64,000 nt of DNA from Methylomonas koyamae (GTDB lineage: Bacteria > Pseudomonadota > Gammaproteobacteria > Methylococcales > Methylomonadaceae): contig NZ_PPPU01000025.1 in the NCBI RefSeq assembly GCF_006483455.1, positions 62,001-126,000 of the forward strand, read 5' to 3'. Positions 18,087 to 63,944 of this stretch are shown here, piece after piece. The position numbers and the translations under genes were made by a program. How positions within the stretch are numbered: position 1 is the stretch's first letter; the number at the start of each line of letters is the position of its first letter. The notes under the pieces were generated by a model. That model saw only the letters and a program-made list of their open reading frames with translations. It had not been told where the DNA came from and made no database searches.

Positions 18087-18295
18087 CGATCTCAAAAAGG
18101 GCGATGTGAAGACAGGGTTGGAAATGATCTCAACACGCGTTAAAGCCGCAGTAGCCGGTTAATGCATGCTGGGTTGAAATCGAAGGGAATTTAGCGTCAA
18201 TAACTTTCCTGAGATTGGTTGGAACTCTCGGTCTTTAGGCTCCTGCCGACCAAAAGCCGGGACACGAAACAAAATTGCCAATGTCAACAGTCCAG

Positions 18296-18379
18296 CCCAA
18301 AGCAGGCGTAGGGTGTGGTGAGTTTATGAACCGCACCGATCGCGAACGATGCGGTGCACGTTGTTTACCGCATCCTACC
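18296..18379 (+). repeat. Long REP/BIME-like repeat, copy 1
   Basis: About 84 bases running from CCCAAAGCAGGCG to CATCCTACC. It contains the hairpin GATGCGGT/ACCGCATC that also flanks the RAYT gene at 51.7-52.3 kb. An inverted copy with roughly 90% identity lies at 54694-54776. It sits between the fcc terminator and the last gene of the cassette array, touching that gene's stop. The rest of 18087-18295 shows no gene. Confidence 0.8.
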
Positions 18380-18959
18380 GTGGTCCGGGTTGGAGGCCCG
18401 TGTGCAAGGCAGACTGCATGTCATCGGCTAGGCCGGCGACGCCCCGGACGACACCTGGGCCGCCATTCTTCCAGTGCACGACAAACTGGCGCACTTCAGC
18501 GGCTGACTGAGGCGAGTATTCAGCAATGCGCAGGACCACTTCGGTTCCGCCTTCAACCAGCGCCAGAGACGACAGGAGCTTGACAATCGGGCCAAGCTCG
18601 CGGACCTCAATGCCAACTACCGAGCCGACCGGCTCGCGTGTGTTGCCAAGCGCCGCTTGGACTGTCGCCGGCGCCAGCGCCTGCACCCTGCGGAGTTCAG
18701 TGCGGGCGAAACAGCCCGATTGAGCAAAGAACTGGTTCAGACCGGAGGCGGCGGCTTCCTCGCGCGCGGTCCGGTCCTTTTGATCGGGACGCCAGTTAGG
18801 CGCCCACAGGACGAGCGCGTTGGTCGAGGAAGTGCAGACAGGAGCCTGTGGCGTGGGCTGCAAAGTGACGCTTGTGCTGGCGCACCCGGCAAGTAGAGCG
18901 CAAGCCGCGAAGGTAGCGAATCGCGGTGCGATGCCGCGAAGGCTCGGGTTGATCGACAT
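18375..18959 (-). CDS. Cassette-borne hypothetical lipoprotein
   Basis: 194 residues from the ATG at 18959; a longer frame upstream overlaps the neighbouring gene. The lipoprotein signal ends in LLAGC (Cys26). The mature part is soluble (VLWAPNWRPDQKDRTAREEA, then VGSVVGIEVRELGPIVKLLSSLA), resembling DUF4410-like lipoproteins, though this is a weak match. It starts one base after the acetyltransferase stop with no attC between them. It is the last gene of the cassette array in the direction of transcription, and a REP element touches its stop. Confidence 0.65.
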   Translation of the reverse strand: MSINPSLRGIAPRFATFAACALLAGCASTSVTLQPTPQAPVCTSSTNALVLWAPNWRPDQKDRTAREEAAASGLNQFFAQSGCFARTELRRVQALAPATVQAALGNTREPVGSVVGIEVRELGPIVKLLSSLALVEGGTEVVLRIAEYSPQSAAEVRQFVVHWKNGGPGVVRGVAGLADDMQSALHTGLQPGPR

Positions 18960-18960
18960 G

Positions 18961-19479
18961 TTAGGCTGTATTTGGGCGGCCCCGCACCAGCGCCCAGCGC
19001 TCGTGGTCGCGCCAGCGGCCGCCGAGCTTGAGATACGCGGGCGAGTAGCCTTCCTGCCTGAAGCCGCAGGCGCGAACAAGTGCGATGGAGGCTAGATTGC
19101 CGGGCTGAATGTTCGCTTCCAGGCGATGTAGCCTCAGCTCGCGGAAGGCGTGGCGTACGACAAGAGACAAACCCCGCTTCATGTAACCACGGCCTTCGTG
19201 GCCCTGGAATGCGAAGTAGCCGAGGTAGCCGCTCTGAAACAGCCCGTAGACCACGTTCGTGAGGTTGATCGCACCAACGAGTTCCCCGGACTTCGCAAGC
19301 ACGACCACGAAGCCAAAGTTGTTCCGGGCATCAAAGCGGGCAAGGTATCGCGTGAACGCCGCTTCATCGCAAGGCGCCGATGTCCATGGCCGATGAAGCT
19401 CGCGGCTTCGTCGTGCAGCCAAAATGAACTCATGCTGGTCTGACGCAGCAACGGCTCGGATCACAATCGTCGGAGACAT
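18961..19479 (-). CDS. Cassette-borne GNAT acetyltransferase, RimJ/RimL type
   Basis: 172 residues with the GNAT fold: residues about 5-165, acetyl-CoA site YFAFQGHEGRGYMKRGLS and the typical LHRLEANIQPGNLASIALVRACGF. Such enzymes acetylate the N-terminus of ribosomal proteins or small molecules; the substrate here is unknown. An attC-like site precedes it (19493-19540). Its stop (TAA) is followed by C and then the ATG of the lipoprotein gene. Acetyltransferases are common cargo of integron cassettes. Confidence 0.88.
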   Translation of the reverse strand: MSPTIVIRAVAASDQHEFILAARRSRELHRPWTSAPCDEAAFTRYLARFDARNNFGFVVVLAKSGELVGAINLTNVVYGLFQSGYLGYFAFQGHEGRGYMKRGLSLVVRHAFRELRLHRLEANIQPGNLASIALVRACGFRQEGYSPAYLKLGGRWRDHERWALVRGRPNTA

Positions 19480-19492
19480 GCTGCCTTACGTG

Positions 19493-19540
19493 GAGGTGAG
19501 GGGCGCGCAGCGAAGCGTCCCTTTGAGCGCGGGGTTAGGG
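19493..19540 (-). repeat. attC-like site 1 (short, degenerate)
   Basis: Read on the minus strand it begins CCCTAAC and ends GTAAGGC, about 48 bases, with the inner palindromic pair GGGACGCTTCG/CGCGCCCC. One core (GTAAGGC) deviates from GTTRRRY. The stop of the gene before it lies in the first core. Confidence 0.65.
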
Positions 19541-19795
19541 TTGCTTAGATAGCTCATCCAGTTTTTCTCCAATATCAACACGATTCGGGGTCTCCAGTTG
19601 GGCCTTCTTGAGTACTTCAATTGCTTTCTTTCTTAGCCCGTAGGCCAGATAAACCTCTGCTTCTGCAATTGGATCAGATTGTTGATTCTTGCGTTTGGGG
19701 TACTTGATTCGTTGCCAAACCGTCAGACCGAGAAGAGCGATAGTGAATATTCCTGCAAGTACTAGCCCGGCGAGTTGTGAGTTTTCAAGACTCAT
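19535..19795 (-). CDS. Cassette-borne small protein with membrane anchor and TPR-like tail
   Basis: 86 residues. An N-terminal membrane segment (about residues 9-26) is followed by a basic patch (RIKYPKRKNQQ) and then AEAEVYLAYGLRKKAIEVLKKAQLETP, which resembles the C-terminal TPR-like repeat of FimV-type proteins. It may anchor a protein interaction at the inner membrane; function unknown. It is flanked by attC sites on both sides, and its stop overlaps the following site. Confidence 0.75.
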   Translation of the reverse strand: MSLENSQLAGLVLAGIFTIALLGLTVWQRIKYPKRKNQQSDPIAEAEVYLAYGLRKKAIEVLKKAQLETPNRVDIGEKLDELSKQP

Positions 19796-19800
19796 AGTCG

Positions 19801-19863
19801 CCCTAACGTAGAGCTAAGGGGCGCTTAGCATAGCGGAGCGTCCCTATGAGCGATGTGTTAGCC
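19801..19863 (-). repeat. attC-like site 2
   Basis: On the minus strand the site runs from GGCTAAC through a mostly self-complementary middle (GGGACGCTCCGC, GCGCCCC) to GTTAGGG. The stop of the gene at 19858 lies in its first core. It is about 63 bases, the common attC size. Confidence 0.8.
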
Positions 19864-20187
19864 GACATAGTTTGCAACCAAACCAGAGAGATCGTCTTTG
19901 TATTCCAAAAATGCCTGATCCTCTTCTTCAAAAGCATCACTGTCAGGTGAAACCTGCTCGAGGACTTCCTGACGGGCATCTCTATCTTTTGGAGGCATAC
20001 CTCCAGGAAATTTTGCGCAAGCGGCTCGCACTATATTCGCAGTATGTTCTGCGCCAATTGAACTAAGTGCGCTGATAATGTCTGCGGCTTTGTCACCTGC
20101 TGAGTTAAAAAAGAATTGATCGAAGCCACCATTATTTATTTCAGCTTCCAATTCATCAATCAGTTCTTTTACGAGTTCAGTTTCCAT
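19858..20187 (-). CDS. Cassette-borne DMP19/DUF4375-like protein
   Basis: 109 residues from the ATG at 20187, preceded by GGAG. The stretch ELEAEINNGGFDQFFFNSAGD is typical of the DMP19/DUF4375 family, whose Neisseria member mimics DNA. The protein is acidic (SPDSDAFEEEDQAFLEYKDD), which fits. Biological role here is unknown. The frame is open for 41 more codons upstream, but that part is the attC site. Flanked by attC sites at 20203 and 19801. Confidence 0.82.
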   Translation of the reverse strand: METELVKELIDELEAEINNGGFDQFFFNSAGDKAADIISALSSIGAEHTANIVRAACAKFPGGMPPKDRDARQEVLEQVSPDSDAFEEEDQAFLEYKDDLSGLVANYVG

Positions 20188-20202
20188 AATTGATCTCCTG
20201 AT

Positions 20203-20293
20203 GGCTAACGATAAGGGTAACTTGCCGGCAAAAGCGTAGCGACGATAGGCGCGGAGCTTCCTTTTTGTGGTCAAGTTAACGCGTTGGTTGGGC
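20203..20293 (-). repeat. attC-like site 3
   Basis: On the minus strand it starts GCCCAAC (a perfect RYYYAAC core) and ends GTTAGCC. The middle contains complementary AACTTG-rich arms. It is closely similar to the site at 21335-21420, suggesting a shared attC family. Confidence 0.8.
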
Positions 20294-20297
20294 ATTT

Positions 20298-20741
20298 TCA
20301 TTGAGTACACTCAAGTACGGCCTCATTACTTGATCCGTTTTTAAGACCATTTAATTCATTTAGCCAATTATCAAACAAGACCGGCTCTGTCTTAAGATAT
20401 AAAGTTGCGTTGCTTGCAACTTTTGTGTGAGTAAAATCATTCCAATCTGACTCCGCCTTAGCTGTAATTGATAATTTTCCATTTCCAGAGCGGTGAAACT
20501 CGAAACGCGCATGAAATGCACCGCTAGCATACTCCGGTCCAAACTCTCCAAACCTCAAGTCATAGAGGCCACCATAAATTTGATTTTTGAAAACGCTAAG
20601 ATCGTTTACAGCTTCGGCCATTGTTTGATGGCCAACATAAACATCACATTGGAATAGTGATTTGCCATCTGAAAAAGATATGGTCAGTTCTACCATATCA
20701 TCATCTTCCCAAATTTTTTTAAATGCTATAGCTGGCTTCAT
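20298..20741 (-). CDS. Cassette-borne hypothetical protein
   Basis: 147 residues, soluble, no signal peptide. It reads as a beta-rich domain (MVELTISFSDGKSLFQCDVYVGH, later GAFHARFEFHRSGNGKLSITAKAES). Lower GC and different codon use from the flanking chromosome fit its place in the cassette array. I do not recognise a named family. Flanked by attC sites on both sides. Confidence 0.75.
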   Translation of the reverse strand: MKPAIAFKKIWEDDDMVELTISFSDGKSLFQCDVYVGHQTMAEAVNDLSVFKNQIYGGLYDLRFGEFGPEYASGAFHARFEFHRSGNGKLSITAKAESDWNDFTHTKVASNATLYLKTEPVLFDNWLNELNGLKNGSSNEAVLECTQ

Positions 20742-20748
20742 TTTTTAT

Positions 20749-20810
20749 GCCCAACGCCAAGCTAAAGCGTGCGCAGCGAAGCGGAGCGTCGCTTTGAGCG
20801 CCGGGTAGGC
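20749..20810 (-). repeat. attC-like site 4
   Basis: On the minus strand it ends GTTGGGC, a perfect GTTRRRY core, and has the inner pair AGCGACGCTCCGC/GCGCACGCT. The outer core on the other side (GCCTACC) is degenerate. Confidence 0.72.
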
Positions 20811-20823
20811 TCCGTGGCTCACA

Positions 20824-21327
20824 CTAGCCAACTGACAACAAGCCAATTTCGTTACCATGCACTTGGTGCAACCACTCCTTCAAAGTGCTCCACGCTTCCT
20901 GAACGGGAATGACCCAATCGGATGCGTCATAGCCCCGGTCATCTTCTTCGAAATAGGCTCGAATCTTAGCATCGCCGGGAGGTTCAGAACCCAGTGCCGA
21001 CAAAGCCTCCTGCGCTTCGTGTTCCGTGAACGATAAATAGGTGCTGTCCATCGCCTTGGCAATACGAATGCCTAAAGACGATTTACTAATAGCGGTAACA
21101 TCAGGGAACAGCGCGAATAACTCGACAAAAGCAAACCCAGAGTATTCGTATTCATTCAACTCCGATACGTGGTTAGCTACGAAGTCCCAGAACTTCGTTT
21201 TTGTATCCACCACCTTTTTAGGAAATATCCCCAGAAATTTTTTCTGGGCTGGAATCAACTCTGCCAAAGAGACAAGTTCTTCTGCTTGAGACGCTTTCAC
21301 GAGGTAAAACGAAGCGATGTAGCTCAT
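20824..21327 (-). CDS. Cassette-borne hypothetical protein
   Basis: 167 residues, cytoplasmic, acidic in the second half (FEEDDRGYDASDWVIPVQEAW). The start MSYIASFYLVKASQAEELV and the general layout recall small immunity or DUF1877-like proteins, but the match is too weak to assign. Bounded by attC sites 20749 and 21335. Confidence 0.75.
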   Translation of the reverse strand: MSYIASFYLVKASQAEELVSLAELIPAQKKFLGIFPKKVVDTKTKFWDFVANHVSELNEYEYSGFAFVELFALFPDVTAISKSSLGIRIAKAMDSTYLSFTEHEAQEALSALGSEPPGDAKIRAYFEEDDRGYDASDWVIPVQEAWSTLKEWLHQVHGNEIGLLSVG

Positions 21328-21334
21328 ATTTTCT

Positions 21335-21420
21335 GCCTAACGATAAGGGTAACTTGACGGCGAAAGCGTAGCGACGATAGGAGCGTAGCTTTTGCCGTCA
21401 AGTTGACCCGCTGGTTATGC
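21335..21420 (-). repeat. attC-like site 5
   Basis: On the minus strand it starts GCATAAC and ends GTTAGGC (perfect GTTRRRY). Long inner arms (AACTTGACGGCAAAAG and TTTCGCCGTCAAGTT) make it strongly foldable. It includes the stop of the gene at 21415. Confidence 0.85.
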
Positions 21421-21726
21421 ATTGCCGCCACCCATGTAATTTTTGAAGTTCTTGATGTAGTCGTTTAGGTTTTCGTCTAGCATCTTTCGGTACTCATTTA
21501 CGAAGTACTCAATGGTTTCTTCTTTTGCGGCTTCCATTTCTTCTGAATTGGCCCAGCCGGTTGCGCTCACCCACGAATTGAACCTTGCTGTGGCGTACAT
21601 CATTGATGCACTGACTTTGCCTTTCGTGACGCCTCCAGAAATCTGATCGTTCGAAAGATGAATATGTGCATCTGCACGATCAAAGAATTTGTCATCGGGT
21701 TCCTGCACAGATATCTCCTGATGCAT
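21415..21726 (-). CDS. Cassette-borne DUF3144-family protein
   Basis: 103 residues. The stretch FFDRADAHIHLSNDQ and the following VSASMMYATARFNSWVSA fit DUF3144, a family of small cytosolic proteins of unknown function. A Gly-rich tail (YMGGGNA) ends at the attC core. The start at 21726 overlaps the next attC core (GTTATGC), so its translation start moves with the cassette. Confidence 0.82.
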   Translation of the reverse strand: MHQEISVQEPDDKFFDRADAHIHLSNDQISGGVTKGKVSASMMYATARFNSWVSATGWANSEEMEAAKEETIEYFVNEYRKMLDENLNDYIKNFKNYMGGGNA

Positions 21727-21783
21727 AACGCAGAGCTAAGGGGCGAGTAGCGAAGCGGAGCGTCCCTTTGAGCGCGTTGTTAG
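21723..21783 (-). repeat. attC-like site 6, interrupted by an inserted element
   Basis: On the minus strand this part starts CTAACAACGCGCTC, has the inner pair GGGACGCTCCGC/ACTCGCCCC and ends GTTATGC. Its outer core is duplicated on the far side of a 129-bp inverted-repeat element (21784-21912), where GCCTAAC touches the stop of the preceding gene. Confidence 0.8.
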
Positions 21784-21912
21784 CAGGTTGGTGAAAAACT
21801 CTTTTTTGGCTTTGAATGACTCTATATTTAGTGACGATGAAGCCGATTTCCTACTAAATGTTGGTTCGATTGAGCAAAATTAGCGTCTCAAATATGGTTT
21901 TTCACCAACCTG
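21784..21912. mobile_element. 129-bp MITE-like element inserted in an attC core
   Basis: Terminal arms of 16 bases are perfect: CAGGTTGGTGAAAAAC at 21784-21799 and its complement at 21897-21912. The 97-base centre has no gene. TTAG occurs on both outer sides (21780-21783 and 21913-21916), a 4-bp target duplication of the YTAR kind used by IS5-type elements. The element must have been mobilised by a transposase located elsewhere. Confidence 0.75.
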
Positions 21913-22353
21913 TTAGGCATGATATTGCCAAATATAAATATGAGGACCAATTTCCCCATTTTTCCACCATTGTTCTAATTCTTCAAATGCATTGATTAGC
22001 TCATCCACAACTTCCTGCGGCTTATAGTTCCATTGAAGGGTGAATAGTCTATGTAAAAGAGGTCTTCTTACACTAAACCAACATGCCATTGAGCCACCTC
22101 GCTTTCGTTGAAGGCGACCGCCATAACTCCAGCGTGGATCATCTGTTTCCTGCTTCTTAAAATTCAGAACAAAATAAGGTCGCCAATATTTGTCCCACTG
22201 AACTTCAAAAAAATCTTCCCCCACAGAGGTTTGCCTTTTGAATTCAGTAAAATGGGGATCGCTAGACTTTAGCTTTTCAAATCCTCTTGATATTACCAAC
22301 GGATAGAATCGCTTCCTTAATTCGTCATTTAGAGGCTTCGCTTTCGATGCCAT
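21913..22353 (-). CDS. Cassette-borne DUF4304-like hypothetical protein
   Basis: 146 residues, soluble. The pattern LRKRFYPLVISRGFEKLKSSDPHFTEFKRQTSVGEDFFEVQWDKYWRPYFVLNF resembles DUF4304-like proteins, without certainty. It is rich in Trp and basic residues. The TAA stop lies in the target-site copy created by the MITE insertion, so the coding region itself is intact. The next attC upstream is at 22359. Confidence 0.72.
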   Translation of the reverse strand: MASKAKPLNDELRKRFYPLVISRGFEKLKSSDPHFTEFKRQTSVGEDFFEVQWDKYWRPYFVLNFKKQETDDPRWSYGGRLQRKRGGSMACWFSVRRPLLHRLFTLQWNYKPQEVVDELINAFEELEQWWKNGEIGPHIYIWQYHA

Positions 22354-22358
22354 GAAGC

Positions 22359-22430
22359 GCCTAACGCCAGCGTAACGGGCCGGTTTGGAGCGCCAGCGGA
22401 AAACCGGTCACGTTGACGCAATCGTTATGT
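22359..22430 (-). repeat. attC-like site 7
   Basis: On the minus strand it runs from CATAACG to GTTAGGC, with inner arms GACCGGTTTTCCGC and CCAAACCGGCCCG that can pair. Its inner sequence differs from the other sites, so this cassette probably came from another source. Confidence 0.82.
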
Positions 22431-22434
22431 TTTT

Positions 22435-23013
22435 TCATATCCATCCTTTGAATTCATGCACTTTGAAGTCTTTAGGCGTTAATGATTTTTCATACTCGCA
22501 CACTTCATTAAGTGCTTGGGAAACTATCGTATCACTACTAGGCCATGCGTCTGAAAACGCTTGCCAGCAGATACCTTTCGCTATCTCGGTAAGTGTTGCA
22601 GATGCAAGTAACGCCATTCTCAGATCAAAAGTGTCCGATGAGCCAAAATTGAATAAGGTTGATTTCGTGCATTTTTTAAGCCGTTGATCTATTTCCGCAT
22701 TAGCGAAATATGCAACGGGTACTGGTTTTCTCAAGAGTTTATCTATCCATGATTGTTTAGGCTGCTTTATATGCTTATTGACATCGAAATGGTCGTAATA
22801 GAACTCAAACCCTGCATAGTAATCTTTGCCTATTAAGTCAGGGTGAGAATGGTCCCGTATATTGATTTTAAAAGGCAAAAACCCCGAATGCGTGCGAAAC
22901 GAGAACTCGGGATGAATTTGGCAAGACATGCCGAGCTCTTGCATTTTTTCTAACCAAATTGGAACGATTGAATCGTCCAACTCATTTAGAAATACATTTA
23001 TATCCATACTCAT
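22435..23013 (-). CDS. Cassette-borne hypothetical protein
   Basis: 192 residues from the ATG at 23013, with TTGGAG upstream. The protein is soluble and begins MSMDINVFLNELDDSIVPIW. It has a pattern seen in small polymorphic-toxin immunity-like proteins (HPEFSFRTHSGFLPFKI), but I cannot assign a family. It is first in the visible array. A GTTATGT core-like sequence about 16 bases before the start (near 23030-23036) may mark the cassette border. Confidence 0.72.
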   Translation of the reverse strand: MSMDINVFLNELDDSIVPIWLEKMQELGMSCQIHPEFSFRTHSGFLPFKINIRDHSHPDLIGKDYYAGFEFYYDHFDVNKHIKQPKQSWIDKLLRKPVPVAYFANAEIDQRLKKCTKSTLFNFGSSDTFDLRMALLASATLTEIAKGICWQAFSDAWPSSDTIVSQALNEVCEYEKSLTPKDFKVHEFKGWI

Positions 23014-23092
23014 GGTATTTCGCTCCAAGAAACATAACTAGTAATTAGATGGTTCTGTATATCTACCGAAAAATGATCCTCGAAACGATAAA

Positions 23093-23380
23093 TCATTGAT
23101 CAGCATATGGGTTTCCCTTCTGTATATCATCGGAACCTGGTAGGTATGACTGGTAAACATCAGGCGGAGGCCATTGAATCAGATTAGGCGATAGACCGCA
23201 ACGGGCCGTTTTACTCATTCGCGTAAGCAAAAGCTGGAATGTCAGCCATTGAATTGACCGAGCTAAATTCGCGAGTTCGACCAAAGCGGCCCTTATTGAA
23301 TCCCAACCGCAGTTTGCACGAAACAGACCTAGGGAATCAGGTAGTGCGTCACCCCTGTATTGCACAACTCGGGTAATCAT
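23093..23380 (-). CDS. Doubtful small ORF upstream of the cassette array
   Basis: A 95-codon frame without a clear ribosome site or known domain. It could be a cassette gene remnant or chance. It lies in the 474-base stretch between the first cassette gene and the nucleotidase gene, where an attI site and integrase would be expected but neither is visible. Confidence 0.2.
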   Translation of the reverse strand: MITRVVQYRGDALPDSLGLFRANCGWDSIRAALVELANLARSIQWLTFQLLLTRMSKTARCGLSPNLIQWPPPDVYQSYLPGSDDIQKGNPYADQ

Positions 23381-23426
23381 CTTTGCGGGTGGACGTTGCG
23401 CTATCCAGCCTTAGAATGCACATTGC

Positions 23427-23458
23427 AAAAAAAGCCCGCCGTAAGCCTACCGGCGGGC
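23427..23458 (-). terminator. Rho-independent terminator after the nucleotidase gene
   Basis: On the minus strand GCCCGCCG and CGGCGGGC (23451-23458 and 23434-23441) form an 8-bp stem, followed by seven T. Confidence 0.9.
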
Positions 23459-23487
23459 AAAGTGCTGCAGAGCTTTAGCCTGAAACT

Positions 23488-25263
23488 TTAGGGTGCCGGC
23501 GCCAACAAGATCCGGTTGCGCGGGCCGGGGTTGACGCTGCCGTTGGCGAGGAAGTAGCTTTCCAGGGCGTCCAAATCCAAGGCGCCGCCCAAGCGGTTAC
23601 TGCCCTGGGTCAACACGTAGTATTGGTCGCCGCCGTCGGCCATGAAGTTGTTGACGGTCACCCGGTAGCCGGCGGCCGGATCGACCACGACACCGTTGAT
23701 TTTGATGCTGGCCGGATCGACGTTATCGCACGGTGTGCCTTTTTCCGACCACTCGTAACTAAAACCTCCCGAAACTTGCATGATCCGGTTGAACGGCTGG
23801 CCGCTAGCCGGCGCGCCGGCCGGGTAACCCGCGGTGCAACCGGTGAATTGCTGTTCCAGCAAAGTGTGGATTTGGGTGCCGGTCAGGGTCAATGTCACCA
23901 AGGTGTTGCCGAACGGTTGCACGGTAAAGGCTTCGGCGTAAGTGACCTTGCCGTCGCCTTCACCGGCGCTGCTGCCGGGATAGGTCAAATCGGCACGGAT
24001 GCCGCCCGGATTCATAAACGAAACCACCGCTTCGCCGAAACCGGCCGGGCTGGTCGCCGCCAATTGGGCGTCGGCGATCACGTCGCCCAGCGCGGATTCG
24101 CCGGCAGCCGTTGCGGTGCGGGTAATCGCCGCGCTGATGGTTCCGATCACCCGGTTGGCGATCGGCGTGGCCAGCGCTTTGTAGTTGTCGACGATGGTTT
24201 TGATGCCGGCATTCGGTGTGATGGCCGGGTTGTTGCGCACCACCGCGATGTTCTCGGCATTGACCGCGCTGACTTCGCCGGTCCGGGTGTCGATCGTGAC
24301 GTCGATGTCGGTCAATACCCGGCCTTGGGAGTTGGCGCTGGTCACCGAAATCAAACGGCCGGCTTTGTTGGCGATTTGGCAGTTATAGGCTTGATGGGTG
24401 TGGCCGGAAATCACCAAGTCCACTGCGTCGTCCAGTTGGTTGACGATGGTTTTGATCGGCGAACCGGCCAGGCCGCCGTCGCAATTGTTGATTGTGGCAA
24501 CGCTCTGCGTGACCGGAATCGTGCCGCCTTGGTGGATCAACACCACGACCGCTTCGACGCCGCGGGCGCGCAGTTTCGGGATCAACGCATTGACGGTGGC
24601 GGCTTCGTCGGTAAACGTCAAGCCGGCAACGCCAGTGGGGGTGACGATGGTCGGGGTTTCTTTCAAGGTCATCCCGATGAAGCCGACCCGGACGCCGCCG
24701 ACGACTTTTATCGCGTACTGCGGAAACAGGGTTTTGCCGCTGGCGGTTTCGACCACGTTGGCGGCCAGGAATTTGAACTTGGCGCCCTCGAACGGCACCG
24801 GCGTCCCGACCTCGGCACCTTTGCAGCTATTCGGATCGGTCGGGTGGCAGCCGCCCGTTTGCATCCGCTTCAATTCGTTCTTGCCTTCGTCGAATTCGTG
24901 GTTGCCGACCGCGTTGAATTCCAGGCCCAGCCGGTTCATGGTTTCGATGGTCGGTTCGTCATGGAACAGTGCCGAAACCAGCGGCGTGGCGCCGATGATG
25001 TCGCCGGCCGAGACGACGATGGTGCTGGGGTTTTGCGCTTTCAGGTCGGCCACGTAGCCGGCCATCCAATCGACGCCGCCGACCGGGATGGTCGAAGCCG
25101 CATCGGTCGGCAGGTTGCGGAAATTGCCCGGCGATTCCAGTTGGCCGTGGAAGTCGTTGAAGGCGACGATTTTGATCGTCGTGGCCGGCATGGTGGTTAC
25201 CGCTTGGGCGGTTGCGGCGCTCAGGCCCAAAGCGATGGCGCCGGCTAAGGTATGCAGATTCAT
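23488..25263 (-). CDS. Secreted 5'-nucleotidase/metallophosphatase, UshA family
   Basis: 591 residues with a Sec signal (about 1-21). The N-terminal calcineurin-like phosphatase domain shows FNDFHGQLE, GDIIGATP, GNHEFDEG and SGHTHQAYNC, all metal-binding motifs. The C-terminal 5'-nucleotidase domain includes GGIRADLTYPG and the substrate loop NNFMADGGDQY. It likely hydrolyses nucleotides or UDP-sugars outside the cytoplasm. It starts four bases after the stop of the PEP-CTERM-like gene upstream, so they probably form one operon. Confidence 0.92.
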   Translation of the reverse strand: MNLHTLAGAIALGLSAATAQAVTTMPATTIKIVAFNDFHGQLESPGNFRNLPTDAASTIPVGGVDWMAGYVADLKAQNPSTIVVSAGDIIGATPLVSALFHDEPTIETMNRLGLEFNAVGNHEFDEGKNELKRMQTGGCHPTDPNSCKGAEVGTPVPFEGAKFKFLAANVVETASGKTLFPQYAIKVVGGVRVGFIGMTLKETPTIVTPTGVAGLTFTDEAATVNALIPKLRARGVEAVVVLIHQGGTIPVTQSVATINNCDGGLAGSPIKTIVNQLDDAVDLVISGHTHQAYNCQIANKAGRLISVTSANSQGRVLTDIDVTIDTRTGEVSAVNAENIAVVRNNPAITPNAGIKTIVDNYKALATPIANRVIGTISAAITRTATAAGESALGDVIADAQLAATSPAGFGEAVVSFMNPGGIRADLTYPGSSAGEGDGKVTYAEAFTVQPFGNTLVTLTLTGTQIHTLLEQQFTGCTAGYPAGAPASGQPFNRIMQVSGGFSYEWSEKGTPCDNVDPASIKINGVVVDPAAGYRVTVNNFMADGGDQYYVLTQGSNRLGGALDLDALESYFLANGSVNPGPRNRILLAPAP

Positions 25264-61927: not shown

Positions 61928-63944
61928 TCAGAACTCGAACCTTACCCCGGCATTGATGGCGTGGCGCGAGGTGTTCTCCAGGCCCAAGGTCGTATCGTAC
62001 TGCACGAAGGCCGAACCGCCGTAAGGCAATTGTGCCGAAACCGCGGCCCTGACGTTCAAATAATCCTGGTCGACCACGTAGGACGCGGTGGTGAATTTGA
62101 CGTTGGGTTGGTCGGCAAAACCGGTCTTCATGCTGGGTAACTTGTCTATCCACTGCCGCTCGTATTCGACGTTGATTTGCGACACCAGTACCCCGAACGG
62201 CAGGCTGAAGCTGCGCATGACGACGGCGCCGACCGCGCTGGTCAGCGAATCGTATTTCTGGTCGTCGATAATCAGGTTCATGCCCAAATTGGCGCCGTGT
62301 TCCTTCCGTCCGGCGATGGACATACGCGCGTATTCGCCGCGGGCGCGCAAACCGAAAGTCCACTCGCCGACCGGCAAATCGTAGCCGCTGGACAGGCTCA
62401 ACTGCTGTTGCCAGCCGTCGGTTTTGCTTTTTGCGGTTTCGTTGACGGCATTGCCGTTGGCGTCGGTATAGGCCGTGGTGCGGTTGGTATGGTATTGGTT
62501 GTAAGTCAGGTTGCCGACGGCATCGATATACCAGTTGTCGGTCAGATTCAACGAGCTGAACAGCGATGCGGTATAGCCGCCGATGGACTGGTCGCCGCCG
62601 TTGTTGGCGACTTCGGCGAACGTGTTGCCGTAACCGATCGAGGTACCCAATAAAAACCGCTGGCTGAAGCGGTAGTCGGCGCCGGCCGTAACGCCGTAAA
62701 GCGCCGAGCGATAGCCGCGCTGCACCAGTGTCGAGCTGCGGTCCACCCATTCGAACTGGCCGTTCAGGAAAAACCCCAGGTTCTTGAACGACGACAATAA
62801 ATCGGGCGGGCTGTCCCGGTCGCTTTGCAGATTGATCGACAGCGCGCCGGAACCGGGCGTGGCGCCGGGCGCCTGGCCGGAGCGGTCAGCGCTTGTCGGT
62901 GCGCCGCCTGCGGGAGAGGGGGCGGACGTGGGCGCCGCTGCCGGTGACCGGGCCGTTCAACACCAGGTTGTTGCCATTGGCGCCTAGCGTACCCTGGTTG
63001 ACCAACTGGCCGCCGACGCTGCCGTCGATGATAAATTTGCCGGGTCCGAGCATGGAACCGCCGGACAAGGTTGTCGAAGACACTCTCAATTCGCCCGGTC
63101 CGGATAAGGTGCCGCCGGTCTGAATGTACTGGTCGACTTCGGTGACGGCCGCCGCGAAAGTGACGTGGCCGTCGTTAATCACCAGGGTTTGACCCAATAT
63201 CGCCGGCGTCGATGAGGCGAAATTGACTTTGCCGCCATTGATTGTCGTGGTGCCGCTGACGGTGTAGCCGGCGTTGATATTGGTGGTGTCGACGTTTTCG
63301 GCGCCGCTAAAAGTCGCATTGGTCGCGGTTAGCGCTGCGTTCAGGGTGTTGGTACCGCCGCTGGTGATCTGGTTGCTATCGCCGCTGAAGGTCAAATTGG
63401 TGGTGGCGATTGTCGCGCCGGTCGCGAACTGGTTGGTGCCGCCGAAATTCCAAGGTGCCGGCGTCGGTATAACTGCCGGTAAGCGTGTGGTTGCCGCTGC
63501 CGTTGAAAATCAAGGTCCCGGCGTTGACCTGGATCGTGCCGGTGTAGCTGTTGTCGCCACTGACGAACCGGATTGCAGATTGTAGGTCGTGTTCGAGGTT
63601 AAAACCCCGCTGCCGCTGACCGTGCCGGATTGCCAATCGAATGCGCTGTTCGAAGTCAACGGCCCGCTACCTTGCAGTACGGCGCTGGGGGAAGCCAGGG
63701 TGAATTTTTGGACGGTGGCGGCAACATCCAGATCCAGGTTGTTGTCCGTATTCAGCAGCGCGTCGTCGGCATTGCCCGGCACGGCCGCGCAGCTCCAGTT
63801 ACCGGGGGTGGACCAGACCGAGTCGCCGCCCTCCCAGGTACAGACCGCGGCAAGGGCCGGCCCCGGCAAGGACAGAAACGCTACGCCCAACCGGACCGAA
63901 AATCCTAAAACGCCCATCGCGGCGGGAGAACGAAACCTGTTCAT
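61928..63944 (-). pseudogene. Autotransporter gene broken by three frameshifts
   Basis: Reading from the ATG at 63944: signal peptide (LGVAFLSLPGPALA), then a beta-helix passenger with Asn/Thr/Gly repeats. The frame shifts near 63575 (to FVSGDNSYTGTIQVNAGT), back near 63445 (GGTNQFATGATIATTNLTFS), and again near 62930, after which a Pro/Ala/Gly linker leads into a beta-barrel domain ending in NAGVRFEF with C-terminal Phe. If corrected it encodes about 670 residues, a small type V autotransporter. Single-base indels explain all three shifts; sequencing error is possible. The last 56 bases of the window hold nothing recognisable. Confidence 0.8.

Follow-up and report, generated by a model that had tools for sequence, protein, structure and literature searches.

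Integrons are usually pictured as one integrase, one attI site and one array of cassettes, and an array found without an integrase raises the question of how its cassettes came to be gathered there. This question arises for a run of small genes in a 64,000-nt stretch of Methylomonas koyamae DNA (the window; positions 62,001 to 126,000 of contig NZ_PPPU01000025.1), which a first-pass annotation had read as a cluster of attC sites lacking integrase (CALIN). We find that the array stands behind an attI-type leader that recurs through the genome and the genus, and we consider it very probable that the cassettes were collected at a satellite attI of an integron with many such sites, served in trans by an integrase that we call IntI-B.

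The cassette array and its attC sites

The array runs on the minus strand from 23038 to 19483 and consists of seven core-to-core units, each a gene with its closing attC; the genes are unrelated and share one orientation. The cores (G of R') lie at 23038, 22365, 21729, 21341, 20755, 20209, 19807 and 19489, and cassettes 1 to 7 have lengths of 673, 636, 388, 586, 546, 402 and 318 nt. The sites, S1 to S7, span 22430-19483 on the same strand and measure 58-91 nt, where the first-pass annotation had given the separators 48-91 bases. They are listed here with the covariance models (R1, R3) that find them and with a miniature inverted-repeat transposable element (MITE) that lies in one of them.

22359..22430, minus strand: attC S1 (R3)
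21723..21785, minus strand: attC S2, with R'' rebuilt at the MITE edge (R1, R3)
21781..21915, minus strand: MITE of 135 nt with a TA target on both sides, inside the R'' box of S2
21335..21420, minus strand: attC S3 (R3; fold z -4.8)
20749..20810, minus strand: attC S4 (R1, R3)
20203..20293, minus strand: attC S5 (R3, E=0.03)
19801..19863, minus strand: attC S6 (R1, R3)
19483..19540, minus strand: attC S7, with a degenerate R', GTAAGGC (R1, R3); strain and species comparisons break at 19491

A MAFFT alignment of the seven sites seemed to misalign the long against the short ones, so the models were started from four short sites and then extended. R1 was built from S2, S4, S6 and S7, so that its recovery of these four is by construction; it reaches S1 at no better than E=0.83. 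R3 was trained on 53 sites, mostly from other loci, to which the window contributed the same four only; on both strands of the 64-kb window it returns exactly S1-S7 and nothing further at E<=0.5, with E-values for the sites outside its training set of 1e-6 (S1), 1.5e-5 (S3) and 0.03 (S5, the weakest).

The stems of these sites covary. In an alignment of 107 attC sites that had been fitted to the structure, 268 double-changed cells were counted against a shuffle mean of 87.7 (0 of 500 shuffles as high), and stem columns are 90.7% paired against at most 46.1% in slid versions; one of the five covariation measures, that of further pair types, gives 31 where the shuffles give 31.3 and so does not exceed them. 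Two possibilities that the first-pass annotation had named as fatal to its reading, that a covariance model would find no attC or that the separators would prove to be one dispersed repeat, thus fall away. S3 is typical and reads GCATAAC-cagc-GGGTcAACTTGACGGC ... GCCGTCAAGTTACCC-ttatc-GTTAGGC where L'' contains a single extra base; the sites of the window share this R''/L''...L'/R' arrangement with an extrahelical base, the extra base being judged by eye. When single sites are folded as DNA only S1 (z -2.5) and S3 stand out, the other five lying at z -0.2 to -1.7, and no Rfam family matches the window at its gathering threshold.

The MITE in S2 belongs to a family of 134-135 nt with ends TARCAGGTTGGTG and a TA target, which has 14 near-full copies in the genome at >=78% identity and a fifteenth, weaker copy in contig C72 (C72:1640-1774). 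Two of the eight targets listed are integron sites, one copy having inserted into the R'' box of an attC and another into the core of a leader.

The claim that intI is missing stands. In the genome (4.54 Mb, 99.97% complete) no sequence passes the cut-off of the integron integrase family TIGR02249, the best score being 106 bits where 265 are required, and an IntI-B protein query gave only weak matches to other recombinases, with no remnant among the matches listed. For G061, a further genome of the species (a single 4.44-Mb contig), the searches gave no TIGR02249 match at E<=1e-40 and no IntI-B match at the threshold used. Three candidate stretches in the window's genome (L017, L018 and L020, with open frames of 291, 294 and 322 aa) were rejected as IntI, the family match breaking off between about positions 179 and 237, which we take to be the site of the integron-specific insertion; presumably they are Xer- or IS91-type recombinases. 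A complete integron, with intI in the genome, is not present, and the array fits the CALIN definition formally, having at least two attC sites and no intI nearby as in the counting given in passages of the IntegronFinder 2.0 report (PMC9024848). What the CALIN reading overlooked is that, unlike a CALIN, this array has an attI-type site upstream, which is repeated genome-wide and behind which cassettes have been exchanged.

A dispersed attI-type leader and the cassettes behind it

The leader directly precedes the first cassette and has the following parts, of which the leader hidden Markov model matches 23133-23034.

23032..23209, minus strand: dispersed attI-type leader, ~178 nt, directly before the first cassette core
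~23209..23134, minus strand: left half of the leader; the attI-like part, 23133-23035, ends in CTAATTACTAGTTA and is followed by the core remainder
23118..23128, minus strand: distal copy of the direct repeat GATATACAGAA
23053..23063, minus strand: proximal copy of the direct repeat GATATACAGAA
23032..23038, minus strand: core GTTATGT, the junction of leader and first cassette

By BLAST the leader has 8 copies in the window's genome and matches in 29 of 61 genomes, these being 29 of the 36 from the genus against 0 of 25 from outside it. With the leader model R2, 33 of 37 genus genomes have matches, at least 228 in all (a lower bound, at most 108 candidates having been scored per genome), of which 12 are in the window's genome and 9 in G061, the maximum per genome being 17 (G034); contig C72 of the window's genome carries its own cassettes behind a sequence 81% identical to the window leader over 97 nt. 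The family has a sharp left limit and the core at its right end. Across 80 copies conservation starts at TCGACCCGTTGCGG and continues for 179 nt through the core, where it stands at 0.95-0.98 at the Ts of GTT, drops to 0.54 at the second base past GTTA and is 0.27-0.51 farther on. Of 82 copies, 61 have GTTA as their end and 7 have GTTG, and the core forms an inverted CTAAT/GTTAG. Inspection of the aligned copies, by eye only, revealed neither terminal inverted repeats nor target duplication, and comparison of the C89 leader locus with G061 as a possible empty site met unrelated content and no insertion junction.

An alternative attI end (AACAGCTTAATAACTTGTT or close to it) replaces the last ~24 nt of some leaders, even between two strains at the same locus, and was seen at L101 8710, L085 3287, L155, L159, L160 and L170.

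The leader is an attI-type site because members of its family adjoin intI-B divergently. In G007 a full intI-B (462 aa; L078:3552-4937) and a leader copy stand divergently, with 33 nt between the leader and the match of the gene; of 15 genus intI loci this is the only one that the leader matches. Among other organisms, 80 loci carry intI-B relatives, and in 8 of the 31 tested the leader lies 34-41 nt from the gene (E 5e-18 to 0.008), in records named Methylovulum, Candidatus Methylobacter oryzae, Nitrosomonas, Competibacteraceae, Zetaproteobacteria, Deltaproteobacteria (two) and Desulfobacteraceae. Three further loci have partial matches farther off (L227, L218, L214), that of L221 is not adjacent, and the other 19 of the 31 have no leader match at E<=0.1. 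Fragments of IntI-B also adjoin leaders in G024, G028, G034 and G002, and in G003 intI-B is open over 432 aa, with no clean start near a contig end. The window copy has no intI beside it; it does have the direct repeats, an L box (by eye) and a core, GTTATGT, one base off the GTTRRRY consensus. Homology between the intI-linked copy of G007 and the others is confined to the last ~98 nt; the left ~80 nt are a feature of the dispersed copies.

Relatives of intI-B led to 10 genomes outside the genus, of which 7 carry leader matches: a metagenome-assembled genome (MAG) labelled Methylomicrobium has 11, three others have 5, 4 and 2 weaker ones, and three more, including Methylovulum and Candidatus Methylobacter oryzae, have a single match each. 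Given these single matches, scatter of the leader is not universal in the lineage.

As to the integrases themselves, some 150 N-terminal residues of the G007 IntI-B have no Pfam match, the Pfam matches covering 149-448. Many MAG records named Deltaproteobacteria or Desulfobacterales contain full-length relatives, and a relative at 49% in a contig labelled Klebsiella pneumoniae MAG (L281) perhaps reflects a labelling or binning error. A different integron integrase is present in G008, G009, G011, G013 and G034 (L057, L059-L062), preceded by ...GATAATCAATAGTT(A/G)...; these loci were set aside as a different integron, another sequence than the leader standing before intI.

The DNA behind the leaders was searched for attC at 81 loci, a sample of the 228 matches comprising 23 from the window's genome, G061, G007, G012, G002 and G009 and 58 from the upper part of the ranked match list (G008:C187, at least, was left out), with positions counted from one leader per locus. 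At 57 of the 81, attC follows downstream on the same strand at E<=0.01, the first site lying at 270-2488 nt (median 542). Relative to the first leader of each locus, 104 of 107 attC matches are downstream on the same strand, none is upstream and three are on the opposite strand, the DNA scanned amounting to 116 kb of upstream sequence and leader against 417 kb downstream. Two of the opposite-strand matches are palindromic twins of counted sites, and the third (L141) has a second, partial leader upstream of it on its own strand.

Leader copies whose upstream flanks match between genomes form 11 sets, and in 22 of 22 flank-matched pairs the 600 nt downstream are without similarity at E<=1e-8, the flank being only ~300 nt for most loci and one pair being linked only via a third copy. 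In 16 of the 22 the end of homology is no more than 5 nt from the last A of GTTA, counted in a breakpoint list that exchanges one chained flank-matched pair for window versus G061. Near-identical first cassettes also start at the core of leaders with non-matching flanks, as in G009 and G024 (95% over 593 nt) and in G013 and G034 (97% over 408 nt).

The flank and leader of the window locus itself are present also in G012, G002 and G061. Up to 23035 G012 matches the window at 95% identity; a single 590-nt cassette follows before the two sequences rejoin at 19491. In G061 identity is 97% in the outer flank and 92% in the leader, with homology ending 24 nt before the core; behind it comes a different array of ~4.3 kb, after which similarity likewise returns at 19491, only 2 nt away from the S7 core. 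G002 is 88% identical, lacks the block with the GNAT acetyltransferase gene as well and resumes at 18252. At three other leader loci of the window's genome (C43, C42 and C7) G061 again has different DNA directly behind the leader. The exchange of cassettes suggests, indirectly, that the leader may have recombined with attC under an integron integrase. A second leader was seen inside the G061 cassette array (L101:10984-11091).

How the array may have arisen

In the explanation that we favor, the genus would have inherited an integron with a long integrase, the 462-aa IntI-B of G007, and its cognate attI-B, and an intI-less attI-B unit of ~179 nt would have become scattered over the chromosome. 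IntI-B, acting in trans, would have inserted and exchanged circular cassettes at the dispersed sites through attC x attI recombination at the core G/TT, by analogy with other integrons. The integrase would later have been lost, none being found in either of the two genomes of the species compared here, and the arrays would now be frozen or dependent on an integrase from outside. We lean, by a little, towards the more general notion of a distributed integron, in which attI is a small dispersed unit without its own integrase and many loci act as docking sites for one integrase working in trans. If so, many cassettes could occupy the first position at once, and cassette exchange in a species of which both genomes compared lack intI would need recent losses or an external integrase.

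Several observations weigh against dispersed attI sites served by IntI-B. No recombination reaction at the leader was observed. At 24 of the 81 leader loci no attC was found at E<=0.01 (at one of them the contig ends after 119 nt), and 6 of the 22 pairs lose homology 12-55 nt ahead of the core, the value of 55 coming from a short high-scoring segment pair; two of the six, window versus G002 and versus G061, involve the alternative leader end AACAGCTTAATAACTTGTT. The right array ends at C43 and C7 fall in repeats, not in attC cores. A full-length open intI-B was seen only in G007, others apart from the G003 copy being broken, and with intact intI-B so rare most leaders may be relics. Integrases of another type could have served the leaders, 14 of 37 genus genomes having an intI over the family cut-off that is mostly not IntI-B. 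No sigma-70-like consensus promoter (Pc) was found on the cassette strand at 22900-23500.

The array could instead be the remnant of an ordinary degraded integron, a standard CALIN left with a normal attI and its cassettes when intI was deleted at this locus. We regard this as unlikely: the window leader has the left half of the dispersed copies in place of intI sequence, the same flank and leader recur in G012, G002 and G061 with no intI-B there among the matches listed, and the window's genome has not one leader but 12 matches. The degraded integron draws some support from the several genomes with broken or truncated intI-B and from another locus of the species, which resembles a platform with a lost intI. 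There G061 (2.556 Mb) keeps attI and, by eye, the start of intI-B beside a hairpin repeat, and the same place in the window's genome (C54:74650-77693) holds ~3 kb of other DNA with no leader (E<=0.1) and no attC (0.05) by the models; such different lesions suggest separate losses in the two genomes.

It is also quite improbable that the leader was carried as the end of an attI-ended cassette, or within larger mobile units, and so scattered passively without forming working platforms. The second leader inside the G061 array would suit such carriage, as would attI-ended cassettes active in mobile integrons, which are presented in parts of a published report (PMC12901181); upstream neighbors, however, are kept between genomes (11 clusters) and it is the DNA behind the leaders that differs. 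The Delta-attI-type cassettes of those parts of the report likewise have attI away from intI, with attI replacing attC at the cassette end, whereas here it precedes arrays at fixed loci.

Off-target insertion at genomic attG-type sites, with the leader a coincidental hotspot, is scarcely credible: such insertion outside integrons is reported in sections of two papers (PMC12444791, PMC12901181), and scattered loci with one cassette each would have a similar appearance, but attG sites are described as divergent from classical att sites, whereas the target here is one conserved family of ~98 nt, homologous to attI, found beside intI-B in other organisms as well and equipped with direct repeats and an inverted CTAAT/GTTAG core.

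The favored explanation, a satellite attI served by IntI-B, would set this array apart from other known systems. It has the attI, cassette array and attC structure of sedentary chromosomal integrons, and intI-B and attI-B of G007 form a textbook divergent pair; such integrons typically have one attI near intI, according to passages of PMC9024848, and here there are up to 17 matches per genome, mostly without intI. The CALINs of Xanthomonas, in the sections of PMC12444791 that treat them, similarly occupy several conserved chromosomal loci away from intI, but those loci are given by neighbor genes and not by a shared attI repeat. For Methylococcus Mc7, parts of PMC8527097 describe scattered attC groups and a stand-alone integrase. 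Dispersed attI copies are not described in the titles and abstract openings of the open-licence PMC literature, among the matches listed. Origins proposed for CALINs, in excerpts of PMC8618304, are off-target insertion, loss of intI and rearrangement; dispersed attI sites, if real, would be a further and testable answer, and some CALINs would be unrecognized attI-bearing arrays. Should attI be able to multiply and spread, cassettes could be acquired and expressed at more than one locus.

Cassette genes and the right-hand block

The genes of the array and of the block to its right are as follows.

22435..23013, minus strand: cassette 1 gene, 192 aa, without Pfam match
21913..22353, minus strand: cassette 2 gene, 146 aa, no Pfam match above cut-off
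21415..21726, minus strand: cassette 3 gene, DUF3144 (PF11342, by Pfam)
20824..21327, minus strand: cassette 4 gene, 167 aa, without Pfam match
20298..20741, minus strand: cassette 5 gene, 147 aa, without Pfam match
19858..20187, minus strand: cassette 6 gene, DMP19-like (PF14300, by Pfam)
19535..19795, minus strand: cassette 7 gene, 86 aa, without Pfam match
18961..19479, minus strand: GNAT acetyltransferase gene, a distal cassette common to G061 and G012
18375..18965, minus strand: lipoprotein-like gene overlapping GCCTAAC (18966-18960)

In a Pfam search of ten proteins, three are over the cut-off (DUF3144, DMP19 and GNAT acetyltransferase) and seven are not. The DUF3144 assignment of the first-pass annotation is thereby borne out; its DUF4375-like gene matches DMP19, which we take to be the equivalent family, and its DUF4304-like gene has no Pfam match at E<=0.1. 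The DUF3144 gene has a 79%-identical stretch in the G061 array. An open reading frame at 23093-23380 overlaps the leader, has no Pfam match over the cut-off and is probably not a gene. Two weak PADLOC matches (E 0.002 and 0.007) were taken as chance.

The array had been given a span of 18375..23036, of which 23038-19483 holds as attC cassettes. The remainder, the right block with the GNAT and lipoprotein-like genes (19479-18375), is missing in G002 and thus forms part of the variable region; no closing attC for it was found by R3 on either strand of the window at E<=0.5. GC content is 41-49% in six of the seven cassettes and 50% in the remaining one; the window as a whole has 58% and the GNAT block 63%. 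Hairpin repeats (GTAGGATGCGG... / GTAGGTTGGGG...) lie at the right ends of arrays, in the window at ~18320-18375 and in the C7 array, and one also stands beside the broken intI at 2.556 Mb in G061.

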